Assembly: GCF_900105925.1 (NCBI RefSeq)
Contig: NZ_LT629791.1
Coordinates: 2,205,278-2,269,277, forward strand
Reading direction: 5' to 3'
From: Jiangella alkaliphila
GTDB lineage: Bacteria; Actinomycetota; Actinomycetes; Jiangellales; Jiangellaceae
Length of the DNA: 64,000 bases
Shown here: one piece after another, positions 27,360 to 32,767 of the stretch
How the letters are laid out: each line of letters begins with the position of its first letter
Position numbering within the stretch: the stretch's first letter is position 1
Made by a program: the position numbers and the translations under genes
Notes under the pieces: generated by a model
Told to the model about the DNA's origin: nothing
Seen by the model: the letters and a program-made list of their open reading frames with translations, nothing else
The model's database searches: none

Positions 27360-28592
27360 TCAGGTGACGGCGGCGCGGGCGGCGTTCTCGGGGCGGCGGT
27401 GCTCGTCAGCGGCCAGGATGGCGGCCATGTGCTCGACCGCGTCGTACACGTCGGCGAAGCGGGTGTAGAGCGGCGCGACGCCGAACCGGGCGAGGTCGGG
27501 CTCGCGGAAGTCGCCGACGACGCGGCGGGCGATCAGCGCCTGCACGAACCCGTACGCCTCGGGCAGCCGCAGGCACAGCTGCGAGCCGCGGGCGGCGTGG
27601 TCGCGCGGCACCTCGGCCTCGACGCCGTAGGCGCTCAGCCGGTCGGCGGCGAGGGTGAGGAACAGGTCGGTGAGCGCCAGCGACTTGCGGCGCACCGCCG
27701 CGATGTCGACGCCGTCGAACGCGTCCAGCGCGGCGTCCAGCACCGCCGTCCCGATGACCGGCGTGGTGCCGCTGAGCAGCCGCCGCACGCCGTCGGCCGG
27801 CCGGTAGTCGCGCTCCAGCGCGAACGGCGCCGCGTGCCCGAACCAGCCGGTGATCGGCTGGTCGACGGTGTCCAGCCAGCGCGGCGCGACGTAGCCGAAC
27901 GCGGGCGCGCCGGGGCCGCCGTTGAGGTACTTGTAGCCGCAGCCTGCCGCGAGGTCGGCGCCCCAGCCGGCGAGGTCGACGGCGACGGCACCGGCCGAAT
28001 GGCACAGGTCCCACAGCACGACGGCGCCGGCGTCGTGCACCGCGCGGGTGACGGCGGCGCCGTCGTGCATGCGCCCGAGCCGGTAGTCGACGTGGCACAG
28101 CGAGACCACGGCGACGTCGTCGTCCAGCACCGCGCTCAGCGGTTCGTCGTCGGCGGACCACCACCGCACCGTCAGCCCGAGCAGCCGCGCGACGCCGTCG
28201 ATGACGTAGGAGTCGGTGGGGAAGTTGCCCGGCTCGGTGACGACGACCCGCCGGTCCGGCCGCAGCCGGGCGCCGGCCACCAGCAGCTTGAACAGCTGGA
28301 CGCTGGTGGAGTCGCCGACGGTGACGGTGCCGGGCTCGGCGCCGAGCAGCGGCTCCAGCTTCGCCCCGACCGTCGCCGGCAGGTCGTACCAGCCGTGCGT
28401 GTTCCACGACGTGATGAGGTCGTCGCGCCATTCGGCGCCGACCAGCCGGCCGACCCGCTCGGCCACGCCGCGCGGCAGCGGGCCGAGCGAGTTGCCGTCC
28501 AGATAGATCAGCCCGTCCGGCAGGTCGAACCGGTCGCGCAGGTGCGCCAGCGGGTCGTCGCGGTCCAGGGCCTCGGCGTCGGTGCGCTCCAT
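27360..28592 (-). CDS. kynU: Kynureninase
   Basis: A 410-residue PLP enzyme cleaving kynurenine to anthranilate and alanine. YLDGNSLGPLP is the N-terminal signature; WNTHGWYDLP, DSTSVQLFKLL, VSLCHVDYRLGRMHD and WDLCHSAGAVAVDL bind PLP and substrate; the Schiff-base Lys is in GCGYKYLNGGPGAPAF. No kynurenine dioxygenase or formamidase gene is next to it, so its role may be tryptophan breakdown with partners elsewhere or secondary metabolism. ATG at 28592. Confidence 0.93.
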   Translation of the reverse strand: MERTDAEALDRDDPLAHLRDRFDLPDGLIYLDGNSLGPLPRGVAERVGRLVGAEWRDDLITSWNTHGWYDLPATVGAKLEPLLGAEPGTVTVGDSTSVQLFKLLVAGARLRPDRRVVVTEPGNFPTDSYVIDGVARLLGLTVRWWSADDEPLSAVLDDDVAVVSLCHVDYRLGRMHDGAAVTRAVHDAGAVVLWDLCHSAGAVAVDLAGWGADLAAGCGYKYLNGGPGAPAFGYVAPRWLDTVDQPITGWFGHAAPFALERDYRPADGVRRLLSGTTPVIGTAVLDAALDAFDGVDIAAVRRKSLALTDLFLTLAADRLSAYGVEAEVPRDHAARGSQLCLRLPEAYGFVQALIARRVVGDFREPDLARFGVAPLYTRFADVYDAVEHMAAILAADEHRRPENAARAAVT

Positions 28593-28612: not shown

Positions 28613-30115
28613 TCAGCCGGCCACCCGCGCGACCGCGCTGGCCAGCAGCCCGGTCGCGACGCCCGGCCAGTCGCCGCCGGACGGGTCGCCCATCGCGTTG
28701 AACGCGACCGCGACGACGAGGTTGCCGACGCGGGCGACCCCGAGGCCGGCGAACGAGGTCTCCGAGCCGGGGTTGTCCGCGGTCGGGACGCTCTCGACGG
28801 TCCACGCGACGGCGTCGTCGGCGCCCTCGACCTCGACGGCGACCGGCTCGCCCACCGTCTGCTCCCGGTCGGCGTCCACCTCGCCGCAGACGTCGGGCAG
28901 CGAGGTGTGCGCGGCGACCACCTGGAAGGCCGAGTCGGCGTCGGGCAGTTGCCCCACCCACTCGTAGAGGCTGGCGTCGAGGTCGTGGTTGTAGCCGAGA
29001 CCGGCGACGGTGACGGCGCCGAAGCCCATCGGGTCCTGCAGGCAGGGCGCCGACCCGAAGTCGACGTCCATCTCCGGCTGTCGGACGAAGCCGGTGGCCG
29101 TGCCGATCGCGGCGACGTCCGCCTCGGTGAGGAACGGGTCGTCGGCGAGCTCGAGCAGCTCCTCGGCCGGCGTCGTGGGCTCGTCGTCAGGCGCCTCTTC
29201 GGCCGGGCCGTCGCTCGGTTCACCGGTGGGGTCGCCGGTCGGGTCGCCCTCCGGCGCGTCGGCGGAGCTCTCGGGTTGGAGGTCGGCCCCGGCGAGGTCC
29301 TCGGTGCCGGGCTCGGCCACGCAGGTGGTGCCGAACAGCACGTCGCACAGCCGCGCCGCCGCCGCGGCCGGCACCGCGAGGTCCAGCTCGACGTCACCCA
29401 CCGTGTCGGCCGTGGTCTCGGTCTGGACGGTGACGCTGACGACGTCGCCGCTGCGCACGATCGCGACCACGGCGACGGTGGCCTGCTGGTCGGCCGGGTC
29501 CAGGTAGTAGCGGGTCAGCCAGCCCTCGTCGCCGACGCCGGTGAGCGCCAGGGTGTCGCTGACGTACGGCACGCCGTCGTCGGCGCTCTCTTCGTCCAGG
29601 CACGTGACGAGGGTGTCGGCCACGCCGGTGGCGCTGCCGCCGTCGGCGAACCGCACGAGATCCTGCCGGACCTCGCCCACCTCGGCGGCGAAGCCCACCT
29701 GGGCACGGTCGAGGATCGAGCTCATGGTGTCGATGGTCGCGGCCGGGTCGCAGGCGATCTCGGGGCCGGGCTCGGACGCGGCGGTCCACTCGATCCCGGT
29801 GTCGCCGGCGACGTCCGCGGGGGTGAACAGCGCGGCGTCCAGCTCGGGCGGCGTCGTCGTGGGCTCGGGGTTCAAGGTGGACAGGCTGGCCGGCGGCGCC
29901 GGCTCGGGCGTCGCCGTGAGGTCGGACGGGCCGACGGCGAATACGCCGCCCGCGACCACCGCGACCCCGGCCAGCACCCCGCCGGTGACCTGGTGGCGGG
30001 TCCGCTTCGCCGCCCGCCGGCGGGCCGCCGACGGTCCCGGCAGTGAGACGCCGTCGAGGTCGGCCGACAGCCCTGTGAGGCGGCGCCGCAGCTCGTCGTC
30101 CAGGGGATCCGTCAC
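28613..30115 (-). CDS. Membrane-anchored extracytoplasmic sensor-like protein (module 1)
   Basis: A 500-residue protein. A cytoplasmic N-terminus of about 40 residues with an Arg-rich ARRRAAKRTRHQVTGGVLAG precedes one membrane helix (VLAGVAVVAGGVFAVG). Outside, two sensor-like beta domains (about 90-270 and 315-500) with paired Cys are joined by an acidic Pro/Thr/Gly linker with DPTGDPTGEP repeats. It starts with GTG overlapping the sigma-factor stop (GTGA). The layout fits an anti-sigma factor or sensor for that sigma, although no zinc anti-sigma HxxxCxxC motif is visible. A paralogue lies at 30636. Confidence 0.75.
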   Translation of the reverse strand: MTDPLDDELRRRLTGLSADLDGVSLPGPSAARRRAAKRTRHQVTGGVLAGVAVVAGGVFAVGPSDLTATPEPAPPASLSTLNPEPTTTPPELDAALFTPADVAGDTGIEWTAASEPGPEIACDPAATIDTMSSILDRAQVGFAAEVGEVRQDLVRFADGGSATGVADTLVTCLDEESADDGVPYVSDTLALTGVGDEGWLTRYYLDPADQQATVAVVAIVRSGDVVSVTVQTETTADTVGDVELDLAVPAAAAARLCDVLFGTTCVAEPGTEDLAGADLQPESSADAPEGDPTGDPTGEPSDGPAEEAPDDEPTTPAEELLELADDPFLTEADVAAIGTATGFVRQPEMDVDFGSAPCLQDPMGFGAVTVAGLGYNHDLDASLYEWVGQLPDADSAFQVVAAHTSLPDVCGEVDADREQTVGEPVAVEVEGADDAVAWTVESVPTADNPGSETSFAGLGVARVGNLVVAVAFNAMGDPSGGDWPGVATGLLASAVARVAG

Positions 30116-30630
30116 GACGCCTCACCTCCCGCCGGGAGCCCCGCGGTGTCGCCGCTGTCGGTGAGCAGTTGTGCCAGCGCCGCCCGCCCCCGCGACAGGC
30201 GTGCCTTGATGGTCCCCGACGGTGTCCCGGTCTCGGCCGCGATGTCGTCGACGCTCATCCCGACCAGGTGGTGCAGCACGATCGCCTGCCGCTGGCTCTC
30301 CGGGATCTGCTTGAGCGCCGTGACCAGCGCGACGTGGTCCGGGTCCGGCGACGGCGAGTGGTCGGGCACACCGTGCTTGACCAGCGCGGTGACGCCGTTC
30401 TTCGCCTTGCGCCAGCGGCTGGCGGCGATGCGCCAGGCGACGGTGCGGATCCAGGCCTCCGGGCTGCTGGCCTGGCTGACGGTCTTCCAGCGCTGCCAGG
30501 CTCGGGCATACGCCTCCTGCGTGCACTCCTGCGCGTCGGCGAGGTTGCCGGTCATCGCGTACATCTGGTGCAGGACGCGGCGGTGGGTGGCGTTGTAGAA
30601 CTCGTCGAAGTCGTTGGTGTTCGCGGCCAT
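30112..30630 (-). CDS. SigE-family ECF RNA polymerase sigma factor (module 1)
   Basis: A 172-residue ECF sigma. Region 2 is DFDEFYNATHRRVLHQMYAM to SSPEAWIRTVAWRIAASRWRKAK, binding core polymerase and the -10; region 4 is ALKQIPESQRQAIVLHHLVG with the HTH DIAAETGTPSGTIKARLSRGRAAL for the -35. ATG at 30630 follows GGGGTGAGG. Translationally coupled to the membrane sensor at 28613. Its stimulus is unknown. Confidence 0.92.
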   Translation of the reverse strand: MAANTNDFDEFYNATHRRVLHQMYAMTGNLADAQECTQEAYARAWQRWKTVSQASSPEAWIRTVAWRIAASRWRKAKNGVTALVKHGVPDHSPSPDPDHVALVTALKQIPESQRQAIVLHHLVGMSVDDIAAETGTPSGTIKARLSRGRAALAQLLTDSGDTAGLPAGGEAS

Positions 30631-30635
30631 CGTCC

Positions 30636-32096
30636 TCACCCCCCGATCCGCTGCGCGGCGAGTTCCATCAGCCGCTGCATCTGCTCGGGCGAGAGGTCGA
30701 CCTGGTCGACGCCGTAGTAGACGACGGTGACGACGTTGCCGCTGACCGCGGCGCCGGAGAGGAACACCGACCCGAACTCGGCGTTCTCCGAGCGCCAGGT
30801 GGTGGCCTCGTAGCCGTCGGTGGAGACCGACCCGGTGTTCTCCATCACGTCGCCGGGCTGGGTGAACTGGTCGACCGCGGCCATCAGCTCCGCGTAGTGG
30901 GCGCGGGCGGCCTCGGCGTTGGGGAACGTGGCGCGTTCCTGGTTGATGTTCGGCCCGCCGGGTTCCAGGGGGTCGCTGTAGTAGCGCTGCTCCATGACCT
31001 CGGCGCCGTCGGCGAACGGGTCGCGGGTGAACGCGACGTAGCCGTAAGCGGCGGGTCCGCCCTCGTCGTTGCTGCTGAGGACGTCACTGCCCTGGCTGAG
31101 CGCTTCGAGCCCGGCCTCGGAGAGGTCGTCGGCGGTGAGCCACCCGTCGACGTCGCCGGCCGGCTCGGGGTAGAGCTGCTCGCGCTCCGGCTCCGACGGG
31201 CACTCGGTGTCAGCGACCGCGCACAGCCGGCTGGTCGCCTCGACCGCGTCGTTCGGCTGGGCCACGCCGTTGTAGTCCTGGCCCTCGCCGCCCCTGACGA
31301 CGATGTCGACGAAGCCGCCGGCGCGCGTGAGGCTCGCCTCGACGTAGGTCTGGGTGTCGGCGGTGGACGGCGGCCCCCGCCAGACCAGCAGGTACGTCTC
31401 GTCGCCGACGCCGCCGACCTGCCACTCCTGGATGAGGTTGTGGTCGTCGCCGTTCGCGCACGAGGTGATCTGGTCGCGCAGCTCCGCGAGCCGGGCCTCG
31501 GCGCCGGCTCCGGCCGGCTCGACGATGTGCTCGACGCGGTAGTAGGGCTCGACGGCGAACGCCGCCGCCGCGGCACCGTCACCAGCCACCGGCATGCACG
31601 GCAGCCAGCTGTCGCCCGCCGGGACCTCGACCCAGTCGGACGGGAACTCCTCGCCGCGGGTGAGGTACTCGAGGTCGATCAGCGCGCCCGGCGGAACGGC
31701 CAGCGAGCTCGTCCCGCCGCCGCCGTCATCGCCACCGGTGCCGCCGTCCTGGCCGTCGTCGCCGCCGGGGGTCTCGGTGCCGGTCGGGTCCGGGGTGGGC
31801 TCGACCGGCGTCGTGGTGGACGGGGTCGGCTCCGGCGTGGGGACGGCCGTCGGCGTGCCGGTCTCGCTCGGCGAGTCGACCGGCTCCGGCGACGCGATGA
31901 ACTCGGGCGGGCTGACCGCGAGCACGCCGAGCGCGACCGCCGTGACGCCCGCCAGTACGCCGCCGGTCACCTGGTGCCTGGTCCGCTGCGCGGCACGGCG
32001 CCGGGCGGCGGCCGGACCGGCGAGCGACATGCCCGCAAGGTCCGATTCGAGCGACGACAAGCGCCGGGAAAGGCTGTCGTCGTGGCTGTCAGACAC
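30636..32096 (-). CDS. Membrane-anchored extracytoplasmic sensor-like protein (module 2)
   Basis: A 486-residue paralogue of the protein at 28613. The juxtamembrane stretch ARRRAAQRTRHQVTGGVLAG and the single helix (VTAVALGVLAVSPP) are nearly identical, whereas the outside part is different: a long Pro/Thr/Gly linker with TPEPTPSTTTPVEPTPDPTG, then two beta-rich domains with Cys pairs. GTG at 32096 has GGAGG upstream and overlaps the stop of its sigma gene by 8 bases. It ends 5 bases before the start of the module-1 sigma gene, so both modules probably form one transcript. Confidence 0.75.
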   Translation of the reverse strand: MSDSHDDSLSRRLSSLESDLAGMSLAGPAAARRRAAQRTRHQVTGGVLAGVTAVALGVLAVSPPEFIASPEPVDSPSETGTPTAVPTPEPTPSTTTPVEPTPDPTGTETPGGDDGQDGGTGGDDGGGGTSSLAVPPGALIDLEYLTRGEEFPSDWVEVPAGDSWLPCMPVAGDGAAAAAFAVEPYYRVEHIVEPAGAGAEARLAELRDQITSCANGDDHNLIQEWQVGGVGDETYLLVWRGPPSTADTQTYVEASLTRAGGFVDIVVRGGEGQDYNGVAQPNDAVEATSRLCAVADTECPSEPEREQLYPEPAGDVDGWLTADDLSEAGLEALSQGSDVLSSNDEGGPAAYGYVAFTRDPFADGAEVMEQRYYSDPLEPGGPNINQERATFPNAEAARAHYAELMAAVDQFTQPGDVMENTGSVSTDGYEATTWRSENAEFGSVFLSGAAVSGNVVTVVYYGVDQVDLSPEQMQRLMELAAQRIGG

Positions 32097-32574
32097 GGTG
32101 GCCTCCGGTGAGAGCGGCGATGTCGCCGGGGAGAATACGAGCCAGGGTGGTGTGGGCCTTCGCAAGCCGGTTCTCGACGGTCGCGACGGACGTTCCGGTC
32201 TCGGCCGCGATGTCGGCGACGGCCGCACCGGCGAGATACCGGACGACGAACGCGTAACGCTGTCTTTCCGGCAGCCGCAGCAGCGCCGCGACGAGGTCCG
32301 CGGACTCGGCGCCGGGCGGCGCCGCGGGTTGCTTCGGGCCCCGCTTCACGCCCCGCCGCAACGGGCCGGACGCCAGCCGCCACGCGGTGCCGCGAACCCA
32401 CGCTTCCGGGCTGGTGGCAGCGGTGACGGCGGGCCAGTGGCGCCAGGCCCGCGCGTACGCCTCCTGGGTGCAGTCGCGGGCCCGGCCGAGGTCTCCGGTC
32501 AGCGCGTAGAGCTGATGCAACACGCGGCGGCTCGTGGCGTCGTAGAACGCGTCGAAGTCCGCGGGTTCGCGCAT
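32089..32574 (-). CDS. SigE-family ECF RNA polymerase sigma factor (module 2)
   Basis: A 161-residue ECF sigma, paralogous to the one at 30112: DFDAFYDATSRRVLHQLYALTGDLGRARDCTQEAYARAW is the same region-2 block, and VADIAAETGTSVATVENRLAKA is the region-4 HTH. The linker between regions is shorter and Pro/Lys-rich. I chose ATG at 32574, preceded by GGGAGG, over an upstream in-frame start at 32649. It is divergent from perM with 193 bp between. Confidence 0.92.
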   Translation of the reverse strand: MREPADFDAFYDATSRRVLHQLYALTGDLGRARDCTQEAYARAWRHWPAVTAATSPEAWVRGTAWRLASGPLRRGVKRGPKQPAAPPGAESADLVAALLRLPERQRYAFVVRYLAGAAVADIAAETGTSVATVENRLAKAHTTLARILPGDIAALTGGHRV

Positions 32575-32767
32575 GCCGAAAACCTCCCCTGTGCCTATCG
32601 TTCTCCGCTTACACCCAGGAGGACCCGTGAGTGCGCCCCACGGTTGCACGACTTATTCGGTGATCGGGCGCGTTTCCTCGTAATCCGCTCGCGGGAAAGG
32701 CAGTCGATCAGGGCATCCCCGGCGTGGTGCCGCGGTTTCCCGCGGCCTTTCCGGTGACCATGGAGAC

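Follow-up and report, generated by a model that had tools for sequence, protein, structure and literature searches.

Four genes that lie head to tail in the genome of Jiangella alkaliphila, two encoding extracytoplasmic function (ECF) sigma factors and two encoding putative membrane sensors, could form an autoregulated circuit in which two inputs converge on one sigma output, with a derived second sigma factor added to it; we hold this reading with roughly even confidence. The window that was analysed is a stretch of 64,000 nucleotides (nt), positions 2205278-2269277 of a 7.7-Mb one-contig Jiangella genome. The genes occupy positions 28613-32574 of it, as an earlier note on this DNA had described: four open reading frames, all on the minus strand, in the order sig2 (32089-32574, 161 residues), sens2 (30636-32096, GTG start, 486 residues), sig1 (30112-30630, 172 residues) and sens1 (28613-30115, 500 residues). 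Sig2 and sens2 overlap by 8 nt, a gap of 5 nt separates sens2 from sig1, and sig1 and sens1 overlap by 4 nt. The cluster is flanked by sucCD on one side and by DUF6350-purN-purH on the other. We found no published account of this locus among the matches listed from the open-access literature.

In the circuit that we propose, sens1 and sens2 would be single-pass anti-sigma factors of a short, class II-like kind, both holding sig1. The sigma factor would be held by a cytoplasmic segment of about 42 residues comprising two predicted helices, the second of which would enter the membrane as AARRRAA-RTRHQ. The tandem PknH-like outer domains would sense a cell-envelope signal that releases sig1, which would then use TGCAACC-N17-GTC to transcribe the operon that encodes it and perhaps also the adjoining kynureninase gene. 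Sig2 would be a derived sigma factor with changed DNA-reading residues and probably another set of targets. Gene order, homology, promoter conservation and the patterns of loss and homogenisation are read from the sequences; we infer binding, the anti-sigma function (assumed from gene order), the choice of sigma factor at the promoter and the mode of release.

The case for two sensors acting on one sigma factor comes from relatives that carry the locus, among them members of Jiangella and Phytoactinopolyspora. In a tree of 36 sensors, the sens1 (15) and sens2 (20) groups stand on opposite sides of a branch supported at 98/98, and both groups contain members of the two genera. A sensor-sigma-sensor order occurs twice, in the one-contig Jiangella genome G003 (sens2-sig1-sens1) and in Phytoactinopolyspora G021 (sens1-type gene, sigma gene, sens2), where the extra sens1-type gene has the promoter element and no sigma gene of its own. 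In Phytoactinopolyspora halotolerans (G019, L094), two sigma genes stand ahead of sensors of the opposite clades and share an identical run of 493 nt, which begins 24 nt past the start and reaches to the stop. Outside this run, identity in 60-nt windows is 38-49% upstream and 34-78% in the sensor, and compared with G019, sigmas from five other genomes show 76-90% identity. The simplest reading of these sequences is a recent gene conversion confined to the sigma gene. A run of 360 identical sigma nucleotides in G017 stops at a contig end and is weaker evidence than that from G019. Gene orders and identical sigmas thus place two different sensors beside one sigma sequence in G003, G019, G021 and probably G017, and judging from the sequences the duplication of the sensors looks older than the divergence of the sigmas. 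ECF sigma/anti-sigma pairs are usually viewed as one sensor per sigma; the natural losses and the apparent sigma homogenisation make the idea of several inputs for one sigma directly testable. A single module is present in G012, G015, G016, G018 and G020, as well as in G013 and G029, and no sensor match was obtained in G014 (75% complete).

Sig1 is conserved across the family. Its score against the SigE-family model TIGR02983, taken on a 175-residue frame, is 145.7 bits (cut-off 141.55), and its identity is 85-97% with Jiangella orthologues, 76-85% with the sigmas of same-family relatives that have single or double modules and 66-71% with those of G013, G029 and L099. A promoter-like element, TGCAACC-N17-GTCCT, was located by alignment and position scan at 32620-32648 on the minus strand. 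In Jiangella the element stands ahead of the whole four-gene operon, and TGCAACC-N17-GTCNT precedes every one of the 24 starts of operons or modules whose upstream DNA is intact. TGCAACC-N17-GTC also precedes the single modules in G013 and in G029, a genome from a different family in which the module likewise lies by sucCD/DUF6350, and this raises the total to 26 of 26 (G017b, at a contig edge, was left out of the count). G003 lacks sig2, yet it has kept the promoter element, sens2, sig1 and sens1; a search of this genome with the sig2 protein (E 1e-8) returned only sigmas of 52% and 37% identity. Since the element is kept without sig2, its likely user, and probably the driver of the operon, is sig1 or a sigma with the same reading preference.

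The motif RTRHQVTGGVLAG lies at residues 38-50 of both sensors, identical at 13 of 13 positions, at the boundary of cytoplasm and membrane (31947-31985 in sens2 and 29966-30004 in sens1, minus strand), and residues 1-72 are 67% identical (BLASTP, E 7e-18), in agreement with the near-identical inner segment that the earlier note had reported. Both proteins are predicted to consist of a cytoplasmic part of about 42 residues, a membrane span, a low-complexity stalk and two outer domains; residues 1-62, the predicted two-helix segment with the span, are encoded at 31911-32096 (sens2) and 29930-30115 (sens1), minus strand. The strongest 19-residue hydrophobic peak covers residues 43-61 in both sensors (2.13 and 2.15). 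Weaker peaks (1.6-1.7) at residues 212-230 and 454-472 of sens1 and 441-459 of sens2 coincide with strands of the predicted outer domains, which leaves, on our reading, one membrane span per sensor. N-terminal helices are predicted at residues 5-20 and 28-60 of sens1 and 3-21 and 28-56 of sens2, with a predicted local distance difference test (pLDDT) score below 60. The earlier note had also stated that a classical zinc anti-sigma domain is absent, and we find the same: no such model is among the Pfam or NCBIfam hits of sens1 and sens2 at E 1 (a result that concerns class I domains of the zinc type) or among the Pfam hits of the related sensors at E 0.1. Cysteine, which the HxxxCxxC signature of such domains requires, is absent from residues 1-62 of both proteins, and among 35 related sensors a single one contains it. 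Sens1 and sens2 (Pfam, NCBIfam) and their relatives (Pfam) match no known anti-sigma domain model.

Ratios of non-synonymous to synonymous substitution (dN/dS) were computed by pooled Nei-Gojobori counts over 10 Jiangella genomes, without G003 and G006, and are rough for such GC-rich DNA. They are 0.35 and 0.39 for residues 1-42 of the two sensors. The inner segment of sens2 is 85-87% identical to its orthologues in nine genomes and 69-70% in G003 and G006. We also weighed whether gene conversion between sens1 and sens2 had kept their inner segments alike inside Jiangella, and rejected it, as sens1 and sens2 form separate groups in the tree and the sens2 segment is closer to its orthologues than to the sens1 segment of the same genome (66%).

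We do not find, as the earlier note did, that the outer domains differ completely. The likeness is easily missed because BLAST sees the outer part only weakly between the two sensors of the window (27% over 146 residues, E 4e-4); identity beyond residue 62 is 29.7% in a forced global alignment. When profiles of the outer parts are compared with the N-terminus removed, E is 1.1e-21; it is 3.7e-22 for the first domains, and the second ones align weakly (E 2.4e-4, probability 43). In AlphaFold2 models (mean pLDDT 64.5 for sens1 and 75.1 for sens2), both sensors show two tandem outer domains whose strands and helices follow the same order. The top Foldseek match of both models is the outer domain of PknH (4esq; E 2.4e-5 and 1.4e-5, template modelling score by target 0.52 each). 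The second domain of sens2 (residues 316-486) matches the PknH fold in VIA with a Z of 15.4 and a root-mean-square deviation of 2.8 over 156 residues; absence of a family from the VIA list says nothing against likeness to that family. The gathering score of 27 for PknH_C (PF14032) is reached by neither sensor (15.7 bits for sens2, no match for sens1), and at E 0.1 this model matches five of 11 sens2 rows and one of 11 sens1 rows among the relatives (best E 8.9e-5 and 1.4e-5). The outer parts are homologous, each predicted to be made of two PknH-like domains in tandem, and with a dN/dS of 0.64-0.84 these domains evolve fast. The view of the earlier note that the signalling end is conserved and the sensing end diversified therefore stands in part: the inner segments evolve more slowly than the outer domains, and near-identical sigmas stand beside different sensors in G019 and probably G017. 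On the other hand, the outer parts are related, having diverged from a single type of domain, and the sigmas are not equivalent.

Sig2 was found in 11 of 12 Jiangella genomes and in no other locus examined, the search being genome-wide in its own genome (with sig1), in G003 and in G021, and at the locus in the other genomes. Its frame is intact in 11 of 11, and it is 49-60% identical to the sig1 of the same genome. Pfam Sigma70_r2 and r4_2 are above cut-off; TIGR02983 is its best model, though at 106 bits (186-residue frame) the score falls below 141.55. At the position of Arg171 of Escherichia coli sigmaE, through which region 4 usually reads the -35 element by means of Lys or Arg, all 11 sig2 proteins have Glu (here Glu134, codon 32173-32175, minus strand), whereas 22 of 22 sig1-type rows have Lys (here Lys142). 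A basic residue at this position is common in ECF sigmas, though it does not formally define them. The equivalence of positions was derived from an alignment of sig1 region 4 with 2h27 and from a survey of 30 sigma loci in the same genome, 24 of which have Lys or Arg and five Ala, Met or Asn, leaving sig2 as the only acidic one. The corresponding Lys170 of SigW bonds the G opposite C-31, and Lys or Arg is found there in Bacillus subtilis ECF sigmas (excerpt of PMC6713349). The overall dN/dS is 0.33 for sig2 and 0.17 for sig1. Along sig2 it is 0.17 in regions 2.1-2.2 (mean identity 91%), 0.34 in regions 2.3-2.4, 0.79 in the linker (nine codons), which is relaxed and has indels, and 0.18 in region 4.2; the values for sig1 are 0.007 in 2.1-2.2, 0.07 in 2.3-2.4 and 0.30 in 4.2. 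The stronger constraint on region 4.2 in sig2 than in sig1 favours a functional reader that has changed over one in decay. Sequence comparison suggests that sig2 is a young Jiangella copy of sig1 with altered DNA reading. With its recent origin and a reversed charge at a residue that reads a base, this paralogue offers a testable case of how a new sigma specificity, or a decoy, comes into being.

Modules of this type are common in the same genome, which contains 59 sigma-like matches to sig1 (E 0.001). We considered 24 loci taken from the 28 besides sig1 and sig2 among the best of these matches (L020, L027, L029 and L030 left out). The sigma gene is followed by a single-pass partner with an equally short, Arg-rich inner segment in 15 of them, and 12 of these 15 partner genes overlap the sigma gene by 4 nt. 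L005 was counted by its second start. The nine loci not counted as short are L011, L017, L022, L023, L025 and L026 (first span at 80-138), L028 (first span at 56), L024, for which no partner was identified, and L019, whose frame looks unrelated. A second tandem pair of this kind lies at about 7495182-7497663 (L005 and L008), with sigmas 77%, inner 60 residues 68% and the rest 43% identical. It is from the 15 loci and the second tandem pair, in which conservation follows the same trend, that we consider the module type common; the shared promoter, the unequal sigmas and the old sensor pair are particular to the locus in the window.

A sigma/anti-sigma pair that is duplicated usually ends up as two insulated parallel pairs, which here would mean sens2 holding sig2 and sens1 holding sig1. 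The overlaps of sig2 with sens2 and of sig1 with sens1 in 11 of 12 Jiangella genomes, the purifying selection on sig2 (0.33; region 4.2, 0.18) and the divergence of the sigmas to 49-60% identity all fit such an arrangement, which we regard as possible and somewhat doubtful. However, residues 1-62 of sens1 and sens2 are still 60-71% identical in the 11 genomes that carry sig2 (57% in G003). They are thus no further apart than in Phytoactinopolyspora genomes with one sigma sequence (47% in G017, 60% in G019 and 50% in G021), which speaks against insulation. Insulation also fits poorly with the retention of sens2 in G003 without sig2, and with the near-identical sigmas that accompany two sensors in G019 and probably G017. 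It is less likely that sig2 is a sigma-like decoy, a poor promoter reader that competes for the sensors and raises the level of free sig1, in the way that PhyR acts on NepR (a precedent described in an excerpt of PMC8999054). Its position before sig1 in the same operon would suit this role, as would the conservation of regions 2.1-2.2 (91%, 0.17) while regions 2.3-2.4 (0.34), the linker (0.79) and the -35 reader have changed. Region 2.1-2.2 of sigma factors also binds core RNA polymerase, and for this reason its conservation fits an active sigma; region 4.2, too, is conserved among sig2 proteins (0.18). Decay of sig2 after the duplication, to which its absence from one of 12 Jiangella genomes (G003) and its relaxed, indel-bearing linker might point, is still harder to accept given 11 intact frames of 11, a dN/dS of 0.33, an invariant Glu134 and a conserved region 4.2. 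Finally, the membrane proteins might be envelope proteins merely travelling with a sigma gene and have no anti-sigma role. No known anti-sigma domain model matches them, but the recurrence of a short inner segment with a membrane span after 15 of 24 other sigma loci, overlapping in 12 of the 15, and the fact that no other part of the sensors is as well conserved as this segment, make this very improbable.

Several points weigh against a circuit of two inputs and one output. The anti-sigma role of the sensors is assumed from gene order, and the adjacent sig2 and sens2 of 11 of 12 Jiangella genomes could be a cognate, insulated pair. The constraint on region 4.2 (0.18 against 0.30 in sig1) means that sig2 is quite possibly a functional sigma factor that has its own promoters. 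The N-terminal helices have a pLDDT below 60 in both sensor models. The root of the sensor tree is unsure, its outgroup row being a long branch, and the sigma tree is poorly supported (four of 30 branches starred). In G019 and G021 the sens1-type copies measure a mere 301 and 292 residues and have one outer domain each, and an assembly effect, least excludable in G017, may lie behind the identical sigma genes. No clear wider regulon emerged either: across 22 genomes TGCAACC-N17-GTCNT occurs at 103 sites, of which 24 belong to the locus and 79 lie outside it, and its reversed control occurs at 67; in the genome under study the numbers are six and four. The extra sites are too few for us to claim a regulon. 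A bolder version of the two-input circuit, which we think rather unlikely, would have one sigma output with several interchangeable membrane inputs, the sigma copies being held identical through gene conversion in Phytoactinopolyspora, missing in G003 and G021, or turned in Jiangella into a sigma-like protein whose -35 reader is altered and which acts as a decoy for the anti-sigma segment common to both sensors, an anti-anti-sigma factor derived from a sigma factor.

Among the known systems with which we compared the locus (CnrY, NepR, FpvR and PhyR), none has the same arrangement. It resembles the SigE-family ECF sigmas with a single-pass partner in that sig1 passes the TIGR02983 cut-off and the partner gene, with its short Arg-rich inner segment, overlaps the sigma gene. 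It is unlike them in its tandem copies, its shared promoter and a sig2 that falls below the cut-off and has an acidic -35 reader; the sigmas of the 15 other loci of the genome are likened to this family by their partner alone, not by TIGR02983 score. PknH is a Ser/Thr kinase, and its outer domain (4esq, PF14032), together with TiME, shares the predicted fold of the sensor outer domains, which here stand as two tandem copies, below the Pfam cut-off, on a putative anti-sigma factor. CnrY is membrane-anchored. The pairs CnrY/CnrH and NepR/EcfG have a short inner segment in common with the sensors, here of two predicted helices; unlike them, the sensors have a large PknH-like outer part. Class II anti-sigma domains such as CnrY and NepR embrace the sigma factor (excerpt of PMC8103513), and domains of fewer than 50 residues have been set aside as possible class II members (excerpt of PMC7406223). 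More than one sigma or anti-sigma factor shares partners in the EcfG/NepR paralogue sets, with PhyR, and with FpvR (PMC4256889, PMC4814048 and PMC8999054, in excerpts): PhyR mimics a sigma factor and so frees EcfG (PMC8999054), and FpvR serves two sigmas, FpvI and PvdS (PMC4256889). The EcfG/NepR/PhyR systems, which are alphaproteobacterial, and FpvR belong to other lineages than Jiangella. Moreover, FpvR is one sensor for two sigmas, whereas the evidence on this locus points to two sensors for one sigma.

Some of the extra TGCAACC-N17-GTCNT sites recur in relatives (L103, L116, L107, L121, L122 and L123). The genes that follow them look, from their sequences, like those of LCP and peptidoglycan-binding proteins, and these sites may be owned by other ECF sigmas. 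The sites of the L104 group were rejected as coding sequence, since they lie inside a frame that we take to be glutamine-synthetase-like. Within the window, GCAACC-N17-GTC with at most one mismatch occurs at 41 sites, against a mean of 26.7 and a largest value of 39 in 100 shuffles.

A kynureninase gene (27360-28592, minus strand; TIGR01814, 264.1 bits against a cut-off of 246.4) begins 20 nt past the stop of sens1. It is a possible fifth gene of the operon and may be an output of the circuit. The gene was not found in the Phytoactinopolyspora stretches that were fetched. It adjoins the module in 11 of 12 Jiangella genomes (in G009 a contig end intervenes) and also in G016 and G018, and in G013 it is located upstream of the sigma gene.

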